Origin: Oscillospiraceae bacterium
Lineage (GTDB): Bacteria > Bacillota > Clostridia > Oscillospirales > Acutalibacteraceae
Length of the DNA stretch: 64,000 bases
Reading direction: 5' to 3'
Assembly (NCBI GenBank): GCA_910574995.1
Contig: CAJTCS010000001.1
Span: 372,001 to 436,000, forward strand
Shown: one piece after another, positions 38,835-52,854 of the stretch
How the letters are laid out: every line of letters begins with the position of its first letter
How positions within the stretch are numbered: position 1 is the first letter of the stretch
Program-made: the position numbers and the translations under genes
Notes under the pieces: model-generated
What the model saw: only the letters and a program-made list of their open reading frames with translations
Told to the model about the DNA's origin: nothing
Database searches by the model: none

Positions 38835-41800
38835 ATGCAAAAAAAGTTTCTTGCGGTGCTGCTTTCCGTATGCACCCTGTTGTGCTGCCTGCCCATGCCG
38901 GCCGGCGCGGCCGCGGCAGGGGAAACGCCCAGCGGCGGCCAGGAGATCCAAAAGCTGAGCAAGGAGGAAATTATCCAGCTTTTGGCCGATAACCCTTCCA
39001 CAACCCCAGAAGAGCCCTTCGATGCGCAGCCCAGCTGCGGTTACCCCTATGCCACGGGCAAGGTGAAGGATACGGCTTTGCAGCATGTTACCAACCGGCT
39101 GAACGCCCTGCGCACCTTGGCGGGCCTGCCCACTGTAACGCTGGACAGCGCCTTGTGCGAAAACGCCCAGTATGGGGCGGTCATCCTGGGCGCGCTGGGG
39201 GATTTAACCCATAACCCGGAACAGCCCGCCGACATGCCCGATGATTTTTATCAGAAAGCTAAAGAGGCCTGTTCAAGCAGCAACCTTTACGCCAGCATGC
39301 CTCTGGGCGGTACGCCCGATGGGTTTATGGACGATTCTGACAACAGCAATGTAGACCGCCTGGGCCACCGCCGCTGGCAGCTGAACCCGGCTATGGGCAA
39401 GGTGGGCTTCGGCTACGTTGCCAACGGCAACGGCTATGGGCGGTTCACGGTGGAAAAGGTCTTTGACACAAGCGGCGGGGGCTGCAGCTATGATTATATC
39501 AGCTGGCCTGCCTCTGGGAACTTCCCCACTGGGGATTTCTTCGACAGGAGCACCGCCTGGAGCGTCACCCTGAATCCGGACAAATACGCGCAGCCGGACA
39601 TAAACCAGATATCGGTGCGGCTGGTGCGGCAGTCGGACGGGGCGGTGTGGACTTTCTCCAGCGCCGATAATGTTGTCACCACGTATGCCAATTATTTCAA
39701 TGTAAACGCCCAGTGGTTCGGCGTAAACAACTGCATCATCTTCCGGCCCGGCAGCGAGGTGAACGGCTGGGGCCGGGACTATCTGGGCGGGGAGTATACC
39801 GTGACCATTTCCGGCCTGCAGGAGAAGGGCGGCGCCGCCGCCGAGCTGGTATACACGGTCGATATTTTCGACCCGAAATATCATGCCAACCCCACCCCTA
39901 CGCCCACCCCAGTCCCCACGCCCGCACCCGAATTCGAGATAGACCCGGATACGGGCACGCTGCGCAAGTATAACGGCGGCGCCCTGGACGTGGTTGTGCC
40001 AGATGGCGTTACCAGCATTGGAATGGAGGCTTTCTCTGGCAAGCAGGTAGAATCCATCACCCTGCCCGAGGGCTTACATACTCTGGAGGAGCGCGCTTTT
40101 TACAACAGCCGTGGGCTTACCACGGTCTACCTGCCATCTACCTTGGCCAGCATAGAATACGCGGCCTTCAGCCGGTGCAGCAGCCTGCGGGACGTGTACT
40201 ATAACGGGACGCAGGCCAAATGGGACCAGGTTGAGATAGACGACACCTATAATTTCAACGACTACCTGTACCAGGCCACCCTTCATGTACAAACAGGGGA
40301 GTCTTGGGATATCTCTGGCTTTCAGACCTGGACGCTGGACAACGGGACCCTTACCATCTCTGGGCAGGGCTGGGCCAACCGGCTGGACCCTGAACACGAG
40401 CTGTCCCAAAGGAGGGGCGAGGTAGAACGGCTGGTGATAGAGCCAGACATTGAGGGCATCGGAAACGGCGCTTTCGCTGATTTTGCAAACCTGAAGCAGG
40501 TCGCTTTGCCCGATGGTTTGGAAGGGATCAAGGGGAGCGCGTTCAGCGGCTGCACGGCTTTGGAAGAGATAAACATCCCAGACAGCGTGACATCCTTTGA
40601 CAGGGCTTCCCTTTGGGACTGCCACAGCCTGAAGCACATCAAGATGCCCCCGTCCATGACCGTGCTGGACGACTGGTTCTTCTACAACTGCTACGCGCTG
40701 GAATCCGTCATCCTTCCAGATGGCTTAACTACCATCGAAGAGAAGGCTTTTTATGGCTGCAACAGCATGAAAGAGCTTGAGATACCGGCTTCTGTAACCA
40801 GCATTGACCCCGACTTTTTAGAGGGGTGCGCCATAAAATCGGTTATTTATGGCGGTACCCGGGAGCAGCTGATTGCCGCTGGGATAGACCCGGCGGACTA
40901 TCCTAATCAAGAGTTCCTTTTCCAAGGGGAGCCCGTGTATACGGTGACGTTTGACCCCAATGGCGGCAGCGTTGATGTATCGTCTATACAGGTACGGCGG
41001 TATACCCCGTACGGTTCTCTGCCGGTTCCTGTTGGCGGTGCCGGCCAGACCTTCCTGGGATGGTATACGGAAGCAGCGGGCGGGGAGCTGGTTATCGCCA
41101 CCACCGTTGCAGACCTTTCCGGCGACCAGACCCTGTATGCCCACTGGTTCAAGGGCAGCGGTCCGGCCCTTATCCCGGCGGGGACCGGCCAGCAGCCGGA
41201 CATGTTGGAGGACAGCCCCAATGCTGGGCGGCAGGTCTATGGGAACTGGGCAGGCCCCATACGGTCTTACCTATATGAAAACGGCAAGGGCGGCCTGACC
41301 CGGGTGGCATGCAGCTATCTGGACGCCTGGGGGAACGGTGAACAGAAGGTGGTTGTGGAAGAATATGACAAGGATTATACCTTGCAGGGCTTCCTGTACC
41401 CCCAAATGGAGCTTCCCATCTGGGGCGGGTTCTTCCCTGGGGAGCTGTATAACTTCCTGATTTTCGGCCAACAGAACCCCCATGAGGACGACAATTTGGA
41501 GGTCCTGCGTATAGTGCGCTATGACAAGGATTGGAACCGCATCGACCACACCAGCGTGCGCAGCCGTAACGGCGTGAACCTTTATGAGCCCATTGCCGCT
41601 GGCAGTGTGCGCTGCGCAGAGAAGGATGGCTTCCTTTTCATACGTACCGGCCGCACCATGTACCAGGGCAGCGATGGCCTCCGCCATGAATCCAACTGGA
41701 CGGTCTCTATTGACGAGACCTCCATGGAAGTGGTGGAATCCGGCACGCCCGGCTATGTCAGCCACTCCTTTAACCAGTTTATCCTGGCCAACCAAGAGGG

Positions 41801-44324
41801 CGGCATGGTCTCCTTAGACCACGGCGACGCCTATCCCCGCTGCCTGCGTGCCCAGAAGTACACCGCCTCCAAGGGCAGGATGTTAGGGGACGGGGACCCC
41901 TTTGATTTCCAGGCGTTCCCCGGTGAGACGGGCGACAACTACACCGGGGCCAGTGTGGGCGGCTTTGTAGAGACGCAGGGCGGCTATCTGGCTGCCTATG
42001 ACTATGATGGGGACTCTATAGACACCCCAAATGTCCGGGATAGGGACGTATATTACTGTTATATTGACAAGGAATCCTTTACAGGTTCGCCTGTGCGGCT
42101 GACCGATGCCAAAGACGCGTCTACGCCTGTTTTAGCCTCTATGGGCTTGGACGGCGGATACATTATGTGGAACGCCTGGGAAGACGGCGCCTGTACCGAT
42201 ACGCTGTACTATGCAAGGTATACGGCGGACGGACAGGTGGGCGAAATCAGGCAGGCCGCAGGCCGGCTGTCCGACTGCGCGCCGGTTTACCACGATGGCA
42301 GGCTGGTGTGGTACGCCACCTATAAGGAAGCGGGGGACGAATACGCTTCTATGGCTTTCTACTCCTTGGATGCCCATGGGGATATTACGGTGGAAAAAGG
42401 CTTTACCCCGGGGAGCGGGCCTACCCCTACGCCCACCCCCACGCCTACACCCACCCCTACCCCCGGCGGCTCTGCCCTCATCCCAGTGGAAGCGGGCGCT
42501 TTGCCGGATATGCTGGACCGGGAGACAGGCTTCCCCAATACGCACTGGTATGAACGGGGCAGCGTCAGGACCCATGTGGACCCCATCGCTTCATACCTTT
42601 ATGAAAACCAAGACGGCGGCCTCATCCGGGTACAGTGCTTTGACAGTACGGTGCAGTATGTGGACGATGTGGTGCTGGTAGAGGAATATGACAGCGGCTT
42701 CAACCTGCAAAGCCGCCTGTATCCCGAAATGGAGCTCCCCATCTGGGGCGGCTTCTTTGCCGGGGAAACGTACAATTTCCTGATCTTTGGCCGCGGATCG
42801 AAAGAGGGGGAAGACACCGAGGTGCTGCGGGTGGTATTCTATGACAAGGGGTGGAACCGCCTGGGCCACGCCAGCCTGTATGGGGCGAACACCTCCCTTC
42901 CTTTCAATTTCGGCACCCTGCGCTGCACGGAGGTAAACGGCTATCTGTTCATCCACACCAGCCACCAGATGTATAAGAGCACGGACGGGCTCCGCCACCA
43001 GTCCAACATGACGGTTTCCATCGACCAAGACGCCATGGAGGTGGCCTATGCCCGCTATGAGATAGGGGGCCCTGACTATGTCAGCCATTCTTTCAACCAG
43101 TTTATTTTGACCAACCAGGAGGGCCGCCTGGTCACCCTGAACCAGGGAGACGCTTATCCCCGTGCTTTGGTGATCCAGGAATATGCAGCCGAGGGGGCGG
43201 CCCAGGGGGTGCTGCAAGGCCTCCGGCGCAGCTTTCTCCAGGAGTTCCCTGGCAACATAGGCAACAACTATACCGGCGCCAGTGTGGGCGGCCTTGCTGA
43301 AACTGCAAACGGTTATCTGGTTTCCTATAGCTATGAGGGGGATAACCCAGACGAGGGGCAGGACGGCCGGGACGTGTACCTGTGCCTTATTGATAAAGAG
43401 ACGTTCTCAGGCGAGCCCGTCCCCATCACCGATACAAAGGACGCCGCGATGCCCATCCTGGCCCCCATGGGCCTGGACGGGGGCTATATCCTGTGGAATA
43501 CGTTGGAGAATTCCAACAGTACAGACACGTTGTACTACGCAAAATATGACGCAGACGGGCAGGTGGGCGAAATCAGGCAGGCCGCAGGCCGGCTGTCCGG
43601 CTGCGCGCCTATCCTCTATCATGGCAAGCTGGTTTGGTATACCACTACCTGGGAGAAGTATGGCGAGCCTATGTCCTTGACGTTCTACTCCTTGGATGCC
43701 AACGGGGACCTTACCACCGAGAAAACCTTTGCCCCAGGTACCACGCCAACACCCCCGCCCGGCCCGCAATTTATCGACGTGCCTGCCGGCAGCTGGTACG
43801 CAAAGGCTGTGGAGTACGTGGCTGCTAATGGCATCATGGTGGGTACTAACGGCGGCAAAACCTTTGAACCCGATACCAAAACCACCCGTGCCATGGTCGC
43901 CCAGATGCTGTACCAGATGGAGGGCAAGCCAGATGGCAGGGGGGCCCCGTTCCTGGATGTGGACCCAGGCCAGTGGTACGCGAAAGCGGTGTATTGGGCA
44001 GCGGGGAAAGGGATCGTCTCTGGCATTGGCGGCGGCAAATTTGCCCCGAACCAAACGGTTACCCGTGAACAGCTGGCCGTGATGCTGTACAACTATGCCC
44101 GCTTCAAGGGCGCCGACCTGGCAGGAAGCGCCTATCTGGGCACGTTCCCTGACGCCGGCTCTGTAAGCGGCTGGGCGGAGACAGCTGTAAGATGGGCCGT
44201 GTCTAAGAAGCTTATCAACGGCAAGACCAACAATGGCGTTACCCGGCTGGACCCGCAGGGCATGGCCACCCGCGCTGAAATCGCGCAGGTCTTTATGAAA
44301 TTCTGCGAGGTTGTCTTACCATAA
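38835..44324 (+). CDS. Large S-layer-anchored surface protein: CAP, leucine-rich, Listeria-Bacteroides repeat, duplicated propeller-like and three SLH domains
   Basis: The 1829-residue protein starts after a strong AAGGAGG. Order: signal peptide (1-28), CAP/SCP-like domain (about 70-345, with HRRWQLNPAMGKVGFGYV), Thr-Pro linker (about 353-368), BspA-type leucine-rich repeats (about 385-690), a Listeria-Bacteroides repeat (about 700-775, YTVTFDPNGG), two copies of a 410-residue domain (about 777-1190 and 1213-1630) rich in Asp/Gly/Trp strands and perhaps beta-propellers, and three SLH domains (1645-1829). SLH domains bind pyruvylated cell-wall polymer. It is probably an adhesin or scaffold. 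The copies share long segments such as ELPIWGGFF and YVSHSFNQFIL. Confidence 0.88.
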   Translation: MQKKFLAVLLSVCTLLCCLPMPAGAAAAGETPSGGQEIQKLSKEEIIQLLADNPSTTPEEPFDAQPSCGYPYATGKVKDTALQHVTNRLNALRTLAGLPTVTLDSALCENAQYGAVILGALGDLTHNPEQPADMPDDFYQKAKEACSSSNLYASMPLGGTPDGFMDDSDNSNVDRLGHRRWQLNPAMGKVGFGYVANGNGYGRFTVEKVFDTSGGGCSYDYISWPASGNFPTGDFFDRSTAWSVTLNPDKYAQPDINQISVRLVRQSDGAVWTFSSADNVVTTYANYFNVNAQWFGVNNCIIFRPGSEVNGWGRDYLGGEYTVTISGLQEKGGAAAELVYTVDIFDPKYHANPTPTPTPVPTPAPEFEIDPDTGTLRKYNGGALDVVVPDGVTSIGMEAFSGKQVESITLPEGLHTLEERAFYNSRGLTTVYLPSTLASIEYAAFSRCSSLRDVYYNGTQAKWDQVEIDDTYNFNDYLYQATLHVQTGESWDISGFQTWTLDNGTLTISGQGWANRLDPEHELSQRRGEVERLVIEPDIEGIGNGAFADFANLKQVALPDGLEGIKGSAFSGCTALEEINIPDSVTSFDRASLWDCHSLKHIKMPPSMTVLDDWFFYNCYALESVILPDGLTTIEEKAFYGCNSMKELEIPASVTSIDPDFLEGCAIKSVIYGGTREQLIAAGIDPADYPNQEFLFQGEPVYTVTFDPNGGSVDVSSIQVRRYTPYGSLPVPVGGAGQTFLGWYTEAAGGELVIATTVADLSGDQTLYAHWFKGSGPALIPAGTGQQPDMLEDSPNAGRQVYGNWAGPIRSYLYENGKGGLTRVACSYLDAWGNGEQKVVVEEYDKDYTLQGFLYPQMELPIWGGFFPGELYNFLIFGQQNPHEDDNLEVLRIVRYDKDWNRIDHTSVRSRNGVNLYEPIAAGSVRCAEKDGFLFIRTGRTMYQGSDGLRHESNWTVSIDETSMEVVESGTPGYVSHSFNQFILANQEGGMVSLDHGDAYPRCLRAQKYTASKGRMLGDGDPFDFQAFPGETGDNYTGASVGGFVETQGGYLAAYDYDGDSIDTPNVRDRDVYYCYIDKESFTGSPVRLTDAKDASTPVLASMGLDGGYIMWNAWEDGACTDTLYYARYTADGQVGEIRQAAGRLSDCAPVYHDGRLVWYATYKEAGDEYASMAFYSLDAHGDITVEKGFTPGSGPTPTPTPTPTPTPTPGGSALIPVEAGALPDMLDRETGFPNTHWYERGSVRTHVDPIASYLYENQDGGLIRVQCFDSTVQYVDDVVLVEEYDSGFNLQSRLYPEMELPIWGGFFAGETYNFLIFGRGSKEGEDTEVLRVVFYDKGWNRLGHASLYGANTSLPFNFGTLRCTEVNGYLFIHTSHQMYKSTDGLRHQSNMTVSIDQDAMEVAYARYEIGGPDYVSHSFNQFILTNQEGRLVTLNQGDAYPRALVIQEYAAEGAAQGVLQGLRRSFLQEFPGNIGNNYTGASVGGLAETANGYLVSYSYEGDNPDEGQDGRDVYLCLIDKETFSGEPVPITDTKDAAMPILAPMGLDGGYILWNTLENSNSTDTLYYAKYDADGQVGEIRQAAGRLSGCAPILYHGKLVWYTTTWEKYGEPMSLTFYSLDANGDLTTEKTFAPGTTPTPPPGPQFIDVPAGSWYAKAVEYVAANGIMVGTNGGKTFEPDTKTTRAMVAQMLYQMEGKPDGRGAPFLDVDPGQWYAKAVYWAAGKGIVSGIGGGKFAPNQTVTREQLAVMLYNYARFKGADLAGSAYLGTFPDAGSVSGWAETAVRWAVSKKLINGKTNNGVTRLDPQGMATRAEIAQVFMKFCEVVLP

Positions 44325-49293: not shown

Positions 49294-49575
49294 ATGTATG
49301 AAGACAAGACCCTAACCTGCAAGGAATGTGGCAGGGAGTTTGTGTTTACAGCTGGCGAGCAAGAGTTTTATGCGGAGAAGGGCTTTGTAAACGAGCCCCA
49401 GCGGTGCAAGGAGTGCCGCCATGCGCGCAGGGGTGCGGGCCGCTCTGAGCGGGACGCCTTTATCGCTGTATGCGCCTCCTGTGGGAAAGAGGCGCGGCTT
49501 CCTTTCCAGCCCCGGGAAGACCGCCCTGTCTATTGTAGCGAGTGTTTTGCCCGCATAAAGGAAGACCGGGGATAA
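49294..49575 (+). CDS. Double zinc-ribbon protein, function unknown
   Basis: The 93-residue protein has two Cys4 zinc ribbons: CKECGREF with CKECRHAR (residues about 8-44), and CASCGKEA with CSECFARI (about 60-86). The first resembles the short zinc-ribbon domain often called zf-trcl. No enzyme domain or membrane segment is present. It follows the SigH-like gene by 124 nt and may share its transcript. Such proteins are common in Clostridia; their role is unknown, with nucleic-acid or protein binding most likely. Confidence 0.75.
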   Translation: MYEDKTLTCKECGREFVFTAGEQEFYAEKGFVNEPQRCKECRHARRGAGRSERDAFIAVCASCGKEARLPFQPREDRPVYCSECFARIKEDRG

Positions 49576-49600
49576 AACCTGGGGGTTTTCCCCTTTTCCC

Positions 49601-49629
49601 TTGACAAACAGGGCAAACCGTGTTACACT
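49601..49629 (+). promoter_or_regulatory. Strong promoter before the leader RNA and decarboxylase beta gene
   Basis: TTGACA (49601-49606), a 17-nt spacer and TACACT (49624-49629) form a near-consensus sigma-A promoter. The predicted start is near 49636, only a few bases before the folded leader at 49641. Confidence 0.8.
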
Positions 49630-49640
49630 TTTGGCAATAG

Positions 49641-49764
49641 CTGGGGGAGTAGTCAACAGCGTTTGCTGTAGCTGATTCAACAAGCATGGGCTTTAGCCCT
49701 GGATCAGCTTGAAATGACCAGACCTGTGCTGCCTTTTATGGCGCGCACAGGTCTGTTTTATTTT
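49641..49764 (+). ncRNA. Riboswitch-like leader RNA with overlapping terminator
   Basis: A compact fold begins with CUGGGGGAGUAG. P1 pairs CUGG (49641-49644) with CCAG (49718-49721). A hairpin forms at 49656-49669 (ACAGC/GCUGU). A longer arm pairs GCUGAU (49671-49676) with AUCAGC (49703-49708), topped by GGGC/GCCC (49688-49699). The 3' side of P1 is also the first bases of the terminator at 49719-49755, so the two structures exclude each other: P1 formation should allow read-through. The GGGGAGUAG box, a UCAA...GG internal loop and a closing GACC resemble the yybP-ykoY (Mn2+) riboswitch as I remember it, but the last arm of that class is missing. The gene downstream pumps Na+, so a Na+-sensing class is also possible. 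Confidence 0.65.
49719..49764 (+). terminator. Conditional terminator of the leader RNA
   Basis: CAGACCUGUGC (49719-49729) pairs perfectly with GCACAGGUCUG (49745-49755), an 11-bp stem with a small inner GCC/GGC pairing, and is followed by UUUUAUUUU. Its left arm overlaps the 3' strand of P1 of the upstream fold, as expected for an on-type switch. Confidence 0.85.
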
Positions 49765-49850
49765 GCGGTGCTTTCCACGGCGGGCTTCTGGTTTTTCTTT
49801 CCTGAATTGGGAAAGCTAGGACAGAATATAAAAGAGAGGAAGGGTAAAGT

Positions 49851-50978
49851 ATGGAATTCTTATGGGAGGGCTTGCTATCTATTACATGGCAGCAGGGCGT
49901 GATGTACCTGGTAGGGGCTGTGCTTATCTGGCTTGCCATCAAAAAGGATTATGAGCCGGCGCTGCTGCTGCCCATGGGTTTTGGGGCCATTTTGGTGAAT
50001 TTGCCCCTGTCTGGCGTGCTGAACCAGACCATGCAGGGCGTGGGGGAGACCCAGGGCATTATCCAGTGGCTGTTCGAGACGGGGATAGAGGCGTCAGAGG
50101 CGTTCCCGCTGCTGCTGTTTATCGGGATCGGAGCTATGATCGATTTTGGCCCCCTGCTCTCCAACCCCAAGATGTTCCTGTTTGGGGCGGCCGCCCAGTT
50201 CGGCATTTTCCTGACCATCGTGCTGGCCGCGGTGCTGGGGTTCGACATCCGGGACGCGGCATCCATCGGGATCATTGGCGCTGCGGACGGGCCTACTTCT
50301 ATTTTGGTAAGCCAGGTGCTGAAATCCAATTATATCGGGCCCATTGCTGTGGCGGCTTATTCCTATATGGCATTAGTGCCCATCATCCAGCCCATGGCCA
50401 TCAAGGCTGTGACCACCAAGAAAGAGCGGGCCATCCGCATGGATTACCGGCCCAATGCCGTTAGCAAGGCCACCCGTATCCTGTTCCCCATCATTGTCAC
50501 TTTTGTAGCGGGGCTGGTGGCCCCGGCTTCCGTAAGCTTAGTGGGCTTCCTCATGTTCGGCAACCTGATACGGGAATGCGGCGTGCTGAACCGGCTGTCT
50601 GAAACGGCCCAGAACGATTTGGCCAACCTAGTGACGCTGCTGCTGGGCATCACCATCTCTTTCTCCATGCGGGCCGAGCAGTTTGTCACCCTGCAGACGC
50701 TGATGATCATGGGGCTGGGGCTTTTTGCCTTTGTATTCGATACCATTGGCGGCGTACTGTTTGCCAAGCTGCTGAACCTGTTCAGCAGGGACAAGATCAA
50801 CCCCATGGTGGGCGCCGCCGGTATCTCGGCTTTCCCCATGTCCGCCCGGGTGGTAGAAAAAATGGGCATTGCCGAGAACAACCAGAACCACCTTTTGATG
50901 CATGCCGTGGGCGCCAATGTCTCCGGGCAGGTTGCCTCCGCCGTGGCAGGCGGGATCGTATTAGGGTTCTTTATGTAG
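49851..50978 (+). CDS. Na+-translocating decarboxylase beta subunit (OadB/GcdB/MmdB family)
   Basis: The 375-residue membrane protein has about nine to ten hydrophobic segments and the family motifs GIGAMIDFGPLLSNP, IGIIGAADGPTSILVS (with the ion-coordinating Asp region) and GANVSGQVASAVAGG. The beta subunit couples carboxylate decarboxylation on biotin to Na+ export. No alpha (carboxyltransferase), gamma or biotin-carrier gene is nearby, so the substrate cannot be named. The start follows GAGGAAGGG at 49836-49844. It is controlled by the leader RNA, and a 67-residue companion follows. Confidence 0.92.
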   Translation: MEFLWEGLLSITWQQGVMYLVGAVLIWLAIKKDYEPALLLPMGFGAILVNLPLSGVLNQTMQGVGETQGIIQWLFETGIEASEAFPLLLFIGIGAMIDFGPLLSNPKMFLFGAAAQFGIFLTIVLAAVLGFDIRDAASIGIIGAADGPTSILVSQVLKSNYIGPIAVAAYSYMALVPIIQPMAIKAVTTKKERAIRMDYRPNAVSKATRILFPIIVTFVAGLVAPASVSLVGFLMFGNLIRECGVLNRLSETAQNDLANLVTLLLGITISFSMRAEQFVTLQTLMIMGLGLFAFVFDTIGGVLFAKLLNLFSRDKINPMVGAAGISAFPMSARVVEKMGIAENNQNHLLMHAVGANVSGQVASAVAGGIVLGFFM

Positions 50979-51114: not shown

Positions 51115-51318
51115 ATGTTGCATCAAATAGTAGCTAGCTCTATTGGCGTCATCGGCGGGGCCGATGGGCCCACCGCCGTTTTTGTAACGGCAAAACCGGG
51201 CATGGAAAATGTTATGGAAGCTTTGGGGATTATGGGCAAAGGCATGCTGGGCATCTTTGCCGTAGTTGGGCTGATTGCGCTTATTGTATTGGCGCTGACC
51301 AAGGCTGGGAATAAATAG
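51115..51318 (+). CDS. Small membrane protein carrying the beta-subunit GGADGPT motif
   Basis: The ATG at 51115 follows AAAGGATGG; the frame is open upstream without a site. The 67-residue protein has a short N-terminal part with SIGVIGGADGPTAVFVTAK, matching the cation-site motif of the beta subunit (IGIIGAADGPTSILVS), and one C-terminal membrane helix (about 42-62). Some beta subunits of this family, as I recall, carry an extra copy of this motif near their N-terminus; here it is a separate gene. I infer an accessory subunit of the pump rather than a gamma subunit, whose single helix would be N-terminal. Confidence 0.7.
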   Translation: MLHQIVASSIGVIGGADGPTAVFVTAKPGMENVMEALGIMGKGMLGIFAVVGLIALIVLALTKAGNK

Positions 51319-52187: not shown

Positions 52188-52409
52188 ATGGGCAAAAACC
52201 TGCGATTGAAAGCGGCCCGGGCCAACCTGGGTTTAACCCAGCAAGGCTTGGCGGATATGGTGGGCGTTACCCGGCAAACCATTGTGGCCATCGAGAAGGG
52301 GGACTATAACCCCACCGTCAAGCTGTGCATACAGATATGCCAGGTCCTGGGTAAGACCTTGGACGGCCTGTTCTGGCCGGAACCGGAAGGAGGAAACGAC
52401 CGTGTTTAA
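52188..52409 (+). CDS. Small XRE-family transcriptional regulator
   Basis: The 73-residue protein is a single helix-turn-helix domain with LTQQGLADMVGVTRQTIVAI and NPTVKLCIQICQVLGKTLD, the pattern of small Cro/CI-type regulators in Gram-positive bacteria. It probably represses its own operon through the palindrome at 52157-52170. The SD AAGAGGTGATG precedes the ATG. Two membrane-protein genes overlap in series behind it. Confidence 0.9.
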   Translation: MGKNLRLKAARANLGLTQQGLADMVGVTRQTIVAIEKGDYNPTVKLCIQICQVLGKTLDGLFWPEPEGGNDRV

Positions 52410-52854
52410 ATGTAGGAACGAGTTGGACGAGCGGCAGCTGCTGCAGCGGGGCAACGTGTTCCAGCACGCCATGATACTATTCGTCGTGCTGCTGTCTATA
52501 AACGCCCTGTTGAAAGAATGCGATATCACGTGGGCCGAGGGTATGTATGAAGACATGCTCATCATGTGGGTGGCCATCACCCTGTGCTTGGGGGAATTTG
52601 CCATACTGGAGATATACCCCATTGGCGGCGGCATGAATGTCATCTATATTGTAGAGGGCGTCGCCGGGGCGTTCCTGTTTGGCATGTGCCTGTTTGAAGT
52701 GCTCACCGGGCGGGAAGCTTTCCTGACCGGCCATACCCTCACCCGGACAGGCGCGGAAATGGTGCAGGGCGGCTGTATGCTGCTTCTTTTGCTGGTGTTT
52801 TGCGGCAAAAAGGTGTATAATCACAGGAAGGGGGGTGGGGAAGATGAAGCGTAA
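52402..52854 (+). CDS. Four-helix membrane protein of the XRE cassette, function unknown
   Basis: The start is GTG 52402 after AAGGAGG (52387-52393), overlapping the regulator by 8 nt. The 150-residue protein has a short N-terminal segment NELDERQLLQRG, then about four membrane helices (about 20-38, 52-70, 78-98 and 118-138), ending in a charged tail. The architecture (small XRE regulator followed by such a protein) recurs in Firmicutes, where the pair is thought to respond to membrane stress, but the function is not known to me. Confidence 0.75.
   Translation: MFKCRNELDERQLLQRGNVFQHAMILFVVLLSINALLKECDITWAEGMYEDMLIMWVAITLCLGEFAILEIYPIGGGMNVIYIVEGVAGAFLFGMCLFEVLTGREAFLTGHTLTRTGAEMVQGGCMLLLLLVFCGKKVYNHRKGGGEDEA

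Follow-up and report, generated by a model that had tools for sequence, protein, structure and literature searches.

The stretch examined here, 64,000 nucleotides of the genome of an Oscillospiraceae bacterium (the window), raises the question of what controls a gene assigned to the beta subunits of Na+-pumping decarboxylases, and what that control says about the gene product. A first-pass annotation, made from the sequence alone, had proposed a cation-sensing riboswitch ahead of this gene and had left the choice between a short variant of the yybP-ykoY (Mn2+) class, a Na+ riboswitch, and a new class. Taken as a whole, the evidence is best explained by a yybP-ykoY element that acts on transcription as a Mn2+ on-switch, a reading that we consider highly probable; the leader looks like a divergent Mn2+ switch that lies too far from the standard RNA database model to be flagged.

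As read from the sequence, the leader follows a sigma-70-type promoter (49601..49629, + strand), in which TTGACA (49601-49606) and TACACT (49624-49629) are separated by a 17-base spacer, in agreement with the near-consensus promoter described earlier; TTGACA...TACACT/TATAAT-like boxes are also visible 5' of the leaders of the genus. The compact fold, the 11-bp terminator, and the U-run that were reported behind it are all present. The segment 49630-49770 folds at -63.3 kcal/mol compared with a shuffled mean of -42.8 kcal/mol (z -5.5), a value equalled by none of 200 shuffles, and the intrinsic terminator (49719..49759, + strand) consists of an 11-bp stem (49719-49729 with 49745-49755) and a U-rich tail. 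A terminator-like hairpin, defined as a stem of at least 6 bp with at least five T in nine positions, was found at the same place in 39 of 40 OadB leaders versus a mean of 9.1 over 20 shuffles of these leaders, and one of at least 10 bp in 34 of 40 versus a mean of 0.2.

Upstream of and overlapping the terminator lies a predicted Mn2+ (yybP-ykoY) aptamer including the helix P1.1 (49642..49726, + strand), which is indicated by covariation and by the covariance models R1 and R2, both matching 49632-49728 with the window itself as one of their training rows. The 5' strand of the switch helix P1.1 (UGGG, 49642..49645, + strand) pairs with CCUG (49723-49726) through two G-C and two G-U pairs, and in the window 49641 and 49727 are mismatched (C-U). 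GGGGAGUAG, the 5' strand of the internal loop L1 (49644..49652, + strand), shares bases with P1.1, and its last base is the first of P1; its G-G-A-G-U-A columns, examined over 49646-49651, show no variation in 79/79 OadB leaders and in 101/101 rows of a second set, to which the window and the mntP leader of E. coli belong. Opposite GGGGAGUAG stands AGAC (49720-49723), of which AGA-C is invariant in 79/79 OadB leaders and in 98-101 of the 101 other rows. P1 (49652..49718, + strand; 49652-49655 with 49715-49718) encloses the P2 hairpin ACAGC GUUU GCUGU (49656..49669, + strand) and an arm made of P3, L3, and P4 (49670..49709, + strand), in which P3 pairs 49670-49676 with 49703-49709. P4 joins GGGC (49688-49691) to GCCC (49696-49699), so that the terminal arm which the first-pass annotation had described as lacking is in fact there. 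Across 90 model-gathered elements, two-sided changes were seen in 4/5 model pairs of P1.1, 4/4 of P1, 6/6 of P2, 7/7 of P3, and 4/4 of P4. The L3 loop of the window reads UCAACAAGCAU...UGG. Crystal structures described in the available text of PMC6754395 have Mn2+ bound via N7 of an invariable adenosine, namely A48 in ACA48UACU of Xanthomonas oryzae and A41 in UCA41AUUC of Lactococcus lactis; alignment to this quoted motif places the predicted Mn2+-coordinating adenosine within UCAACA of the window at 49682 (+ strand), a position that is A in 79/79 OadB leaders and in 101/101 rows of the second set, in alignments fitted to the model.

The structured leader that had been observed in the window is a conserved one. 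A first alignment of 22 leaders, comprising the window, 19 of its genus, and two of another genus, was given a hand-written structure; one leader of the genus (L050) was left out because its end pattern did not fit, and was later recovered by the model. In this alignment, 94.6% of the pair cells hold standard pairs and 13/26 pairs change on both sides. The 90 elements are likewise paired in 94.6% of cells and the 79 OadB leaders in 91.6%, each with two-sided change in 25/26 pairs, in alignments that were fitted to the covariance model and are hence biased towards it; the covariation that the first-pass annotation had asked for among leaders of OadB homologues is strong. None of 500 shuffles attained any of five covariation measures in either the 22-leader or the 90-element set, and when pairing partners were slid by 1-3 columns only 24-43% of cells (90 elements) and 30-42% (79 OadB leaders) still paired. 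RNAalifold recovered P1, P2, P3, and P4 unaided from the 22-leader alignment and placed P1.1 in a different register. The closing helix proposed earlier, CUGG (49641-49644) with CCAG (49718-49721), was rejected: it is 70.5% paired with zero two-sided changes, a level matched by 154 of 500 shuffles, and the helices that have covariation behind them are P1 (49652-49655/49715-49718) and P1.1 (49642-49645/49723-49726).

The on-switch layout that had been deduced from that closing helix is nevertheless real, with P1.1 as the helix that excludes the terminator. The 5' arm of the terminator includes the P1.1 3' strand (49723-49726 within 49719-49729), and in the predicted fold P1 is compatible with the terminator and P1.1 is not. 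The aptamer helices form the best predicted fold before the 3' arm of the terminator is made. Predicted energies for the full leader are -54.9 kcal/mol with the terminator formed and -36.3 kcal/mol with P1.1 and P1 formed; P1.1 of the window is only 4 bp long, and as the terminator is far more stable at equilibrium, the choice between the two must be kinetic and take place during transcription. At low Mn2+, RNA polymerase would finish the 11-bp terminator hairpin and stop ahead of the gene. At high Mn2+, the ion would bridge L1 (GGGGAGUAG and AGA) and L3 (A49682), the two arms would dock and the weak helix P1.1 would be held, its 3' strand (49723-49726) would be withheld from the terminator, and the operon of oadB-A and a small transmembrane gene would then be transcribed. 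A precedent is reported for L. lactis, where P1.1 is stabilised by Mn2+ and an overlapping terminator is suppressed (PMC11087558, available text). One review, in the portion accessible, terms Mn2+ switches 'OFF' switches (PMC11477304), whereas the layout in the window is that of an on-switch. For the window leader, we infer both ligand binding and the direction of the response.

Rfam did not flag this RNA. At their own cut-offs, its families gave no match in the window, and within 49550-49860 at E<=10 there was none to RF00080 (yybP-ykoY), nor to the Na+-I (DUF1646) and Li+ (nhaA) riboswitch families, which we take to be included in Rfam 15; three unrelated weak matches in this interval (mir-320, mir-21, and Pseudomonas P1) were dismissed as chance. 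RF00080 matched 5/16 OadB loci scanned, all below the cut-off (best 34.0 of 45 bits, E 1.5e-5), which no relative scanned reached (best relatives up to 36.6 of 45 bits). This gathering cut-off is a detection threshold and not a structural definition, and applied in Rfam 15 it also misses the mntP (L294 4458-4548) and alx (L295) leaders of E. coli K-12. Model R2, which contains no E. coli sequence, scores 29.9 bits (E 3.3e-6) on the mntP leader of E. coli K-12 and gave no match on the alx leader. The option of a short yybP-ykoY variant fits this outcome, with the model landing on the E. coli mntP Mn2+ leader and also before MntP genes, and the option of a new class falls with it. An exact DNA pattern found nothing over the genome contigs, and a blastn-type leader search of 150 family genomes returned the window itself only; the leaders of relatives were obtained by protein-anchored search and covariance models.

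The consensus GGGAGUAG ... UCAACA.uc.UGg ... AAAcgaCgAGAC is the yybP-ykoY motif. With members of RF00080, such as L. lactis yoaB and the X. oryzae and E. coli mntP elements, the leader shares GGGGAGUAG in L1, the helices P1.1, P1, P2, P3, and P4, the sensor adenosine in L3, the AGAC 3' strand, and the P1.1-versus-terminator on-switch layout; it differs from yybP-ykoY elements elsewhere in scoring below the Rfam cut-off, in having one more base in L3 than the commonest form, and in its OadB-family target. The earlier interpretation was right in placing an on-switch of yybP-ykoY type, cation-sensing and controlled by a terminator, ahead of an OadB gene; the switch helix and the P4 arm had to be corrected. 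RF02617, 'SSRC10' (Streptococcus sRNA 10), aligns below its cut-off along the aptamer and terminator of several leaders (up to 38.6 bits in OadB loci of the genus and 42 bits in L222) and is, unlike the window leader, filed as an sRNA. It aligns to L044, L045, L043, L222, L269, and others, and may itself be a Mn2+ riboswitch leader.

Related elements are widespread and precede a recurrent set of genes. R1 matches 68/300 family genomes (42/135 genera) and R2 129/291 genomes of a class sample (91/181 genera). For 70 of the 73 family matches, the 3' gene encodes a P-type ATPase (30), MntP (16), OadB (8), a CaCA exchanger (7), a TetR-type regulator (6), GDT1 (1), or an ABC transporter (1), with one not assigned; R1 was trained on OadB leaders, and OadB is favoured in this set. 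The 58 best-scoring class matches are followed by genes for MntP (24), P-type ATPase (18), CaCA (6), ABC (5), OadB (3), and TetR (1), again with one not assigned. Downstream genes were typed by tblastn to seeds, with the ABC and Na/Pi labels given by eye, and one example per gene type was checked in Pfam. The window's own genome holds three elements, before OadB (window), MntP (L234), and a Na+/Pi-cotransporter (L235); a Na+/Pi-cotransporter-family gene also lies behind an element in three other genomes of the genus (L242, L243, and L244), making four. Six elements precede a gene for an ABC-transporter ATPase (L088, L214, L224, L232, L253, and L271), mostly with an FtsX-like permease ORF next, as judged by eye. 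The TetR-type regulator gene, an unusual target, is found behind the elements at L067, L070, L074, L086, L098, L128, and L219, and two elements stand in tandem ahead of a P-type ATPase gene in L210 (1501-1599 and 1645-1739).

Which ligand the class assignment implies has to be weighed against three other readings. A Na+ (or Li+) riboswitch driving a Na+ pump would suit a target family that is a Na+-pump subunit, and Na+-I riboswitches (DUF1646 motif) do at times precede OAD genes (PMC9337991, accessible text), but the window leader is unmatched by any such Rfam family in the interval searched and has the yybP-ykoY scaffold in both sequence and structure, which makes this option of the first-pass annotation very unlikely. 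Equally hard to credit is a conserved attenuator that has no metal ligand and is controlled by a protein or by translation: it would explain a terminator hairpin within the leader, but would account neither for the relation to mntP nor for the conservation of unpaired residues in L1 and L3. A yybP-ykoY variant sensing another divalent ion, e.g., Ca2+, on which OadB-A and the Na+/Ca2+ exchanger would act, is improbable, though less so. The L3 forms commonest before OadB (CCAACAAGCAU in 10, UCAACAAUCAU in 6, and UCAACAAGCAU in 5 of 79 leaders) are one base longer than UCAACAUACU, the form commonest before other genes (16/101), so that ligand specificity could have shifted; in the text available, a review mentions unpublished yybP variants for other divalent ions (PMC7266159) and folding with either Ca2+ or Mn2+ is reported for the mgtA aptamer of Streptococcus pneumoniae (PMC9495176), and the switch stands before a Na_Ca_ex gene in seven sister genomes. 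Against such a shift, both L3 types precede OadB genes and L3 is of ordinary length in many OadB leaders, none of the 79 has lost the Mn2+-coordinating adenosine, and the same type of switch precedes mntP in the window's genome and at 10 of the 42 elements of the genus. The Mn2+ reading of the OadB leader is accordingly the one retained below.

The gene behind the leader, oadB-A (49851..50978, + strand), encodes a 375-aa membrane protein of the OAD_beta family (PF03977, 514 bits) related to 6iva/6iww. It is followed by a small membrane-protein gene (51115..51318, + strand), whose product has 67 aa if the start is at 51115 (the ORF is open from 51046) and contains ...GGADGPT...IMGKGMLGIF...; a motif script found a small one-TM ORF with IMGKGMLGIF behind 40/51 OadB-A genes. 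The OadB tree has two deep clades of 89 and 15 rows (100/100 support), and all 40 switch-linked rows fall in the 89-row clade (OadB-A), apart from the canonical paralogue. Further along the window, an ORF of 190 aa (52282-52854) has no Pfam or NCBIfam match, and relatives of it occur near OadB-A in 9/21 OadB-A loci tested in the genus; on the other side, a very long ORF of 1829 aa (38835-44324) resembles a repeat protein of the secreted or surface kind.

Within the genus (29 genomes), every genome carries at least one element, and a close oadB-A orthologue is present in 22 (89-97% identity besides the window's own) and absent in seven. The 22 combine the switch with OadB-A, the other seven combine it with CaCA (Na+/Ca2+ exchanger), and none has both arrangements; PF01699 scores over its cut-off in exactly the seven genomes that lack OadB-A, and a Na_Ca_ex match of 19.9 bits, under the cut-off, occurs in one OadB-A genome (G150). 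This exclusivity has a Fisher's p of 6e-7, uncorrected for ancestry, and the seven CaCA genomes cluster together in the canonical paralogue's tree, so that the swap between OadB-A and CaCA may be one event, while their CaCA genes fall into two kinds that share about 35-40% identity. Among the 150 family genomes, CaCA occurs in 8/64 with OadB-A versus 35/86 without it (p 2e-4, likewise uncorrected); the two occur together in eight of the 150 and the exclusivity is therefore strict only in the genus. Five neighbour proteins of the window were compared with the flanks of the switch-CaCA loci; four of them revealed no shared genes there, and the fifth (52282-52854) matches OadB-A loci only.

The link between switch and OadB-A is close in the genus (22/22 OadB-A loci) and not universal: in the family sample, an element was found at only 15/63 OadB-A loci, a count that leaves out one partial gene (G111), and at 0/15 canonical loci. 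In a species-level collection, R2 matches 5' of the gene at E<=0.001 in 61 of the 80 closest OadB relatives, and at 0.048 in a further one. Training had used 18 of these 80 loci; of the remaining 62, 43 match R2 at E<=0.001. The records include Butyricicoccus, Agathobaculum, Oscillibacter, Pseudoflavonifractor, Anaerotruncus, Enterocloster, and Lachnospiraceae, the nearest named ones being Neglectibacter sp. X58 and Acutalibacter (Oscillospiraceae).

What OadB-A itself does is less settled. That the target is a Na+-coupled pump, as the first-pass annotation had put it, holds as far as family membership goes, and it is here, not in the Mn2+ ligand, that doubt is probably due. In one account, OadB-A would pump Na+ as any other beta subunit does, with alpha subunit and biotin carrier borrowed from elsewhere, and Mn2+ would induce it for an indirect reason, e.g., to energise Na+-coupled export; this is plausible without being probable. 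In the OAD beta subunit, Na+ is bound by D203, S382, and N412, and E40, R304, and N311 matter for decarboxylation (PMC7274780, available text). The residues E40, D203, S382, and N412 are kept in 40/40 switch-linked, 48-49/49 other OadB-A (one gap), and 15/15 canonical proteins, that is, in all letters seen, and the window's OadB-A retains R304 and N311 as well, hence all six. An oadA-like gene exists elsewhere in 8/10 genomes searched, including the window's (the genomes were chosen for the question), which rules out the notion that all OadB-A genomes lack any alpha subunit; in G055, G103, and G118, a PF01039 carboxyltransferase region lies beside a biotin carrier, with one of full length each in G055 and G103. 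Other observations tell against borrowing. Within flanks of up to 1.5 kb, or less where a contig ended, alpha or biotin-carrier genes occur at 0/51 OadB-A loci versus 8/8 canonical loci, and the canonical beta gene of the window's genome sits between alpha and biotin-carrier genes on a different contig. R304 is kept in 23/40 switch-linked and 3/49 other OadB-A proteins, and N311 in 32/40 and 15/49, compared with 15/15 canonical proteins for each. Two genomes, G134 (switch and OadB-A, 100% complete) and G120 (OadB-A, no switch found), have no oadA above 39 bits, with nothing over 28.9 bits in G134, and their PF01039 carboxyltransferase matches are only split ones of AccA/AccD type.

Like the beta subunit of the OAD Na+ pump, OadB-A thus belongs to PF03977 and keeps the Na+-site residues; unlike it, OadB-A forms a separate clade, has flanks that lack alpha and biotin-carrier genes, has a small one-TM partner, and stands behind a switch of Mn2+ type. 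OadB-A may be, or may replace, an exporter of Mn2+ or other divalent cations, where transport is what we infer. In its fuller form, which we put forward tentatively, OadB-A and its one-TM partner would be an unrecognised Mn2+ (or Mn2+/Ca2+) efflux family, a cation-coupled divalent exporter derived from a Na+-pump beta subunit that was freed from biotin and decarboxylation, wired to a Mn2+ riboswitch, and interchangeable with CaCA (Na_Ca_ex) across gut Clostridia. Our search of the open literature, outside which two 2015 papers on the Mn2+ assignment fell, found no paper joining the yybP-ykoY or manganese riboswitch to OadB or oxaloacetate decarboxylase, and the sole paper with both riboswitch and decarboxylase terms concerns, in its accessible text, Na+ riboswitches (PMC9337991). 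The OadB leader RNA is best taken as a further member of the known Mn2+ class, and what is new is the proposed functional reassignment of OadB-A.

A riboswitch of known ligand class serves as a functional annotation of its target gene. The elements are common in the class sample yet almost all fall under the Rfam cut-off, and the Mn2+ regulons of gut Clostridia are therefore under-annotated. In the present case the switch directs attention to a large transporter subfamily labelled in databases as a decarboxylase Na+-pump subunit, and suggests for it a role in Mn2+ or divalent-cation homeostasis.
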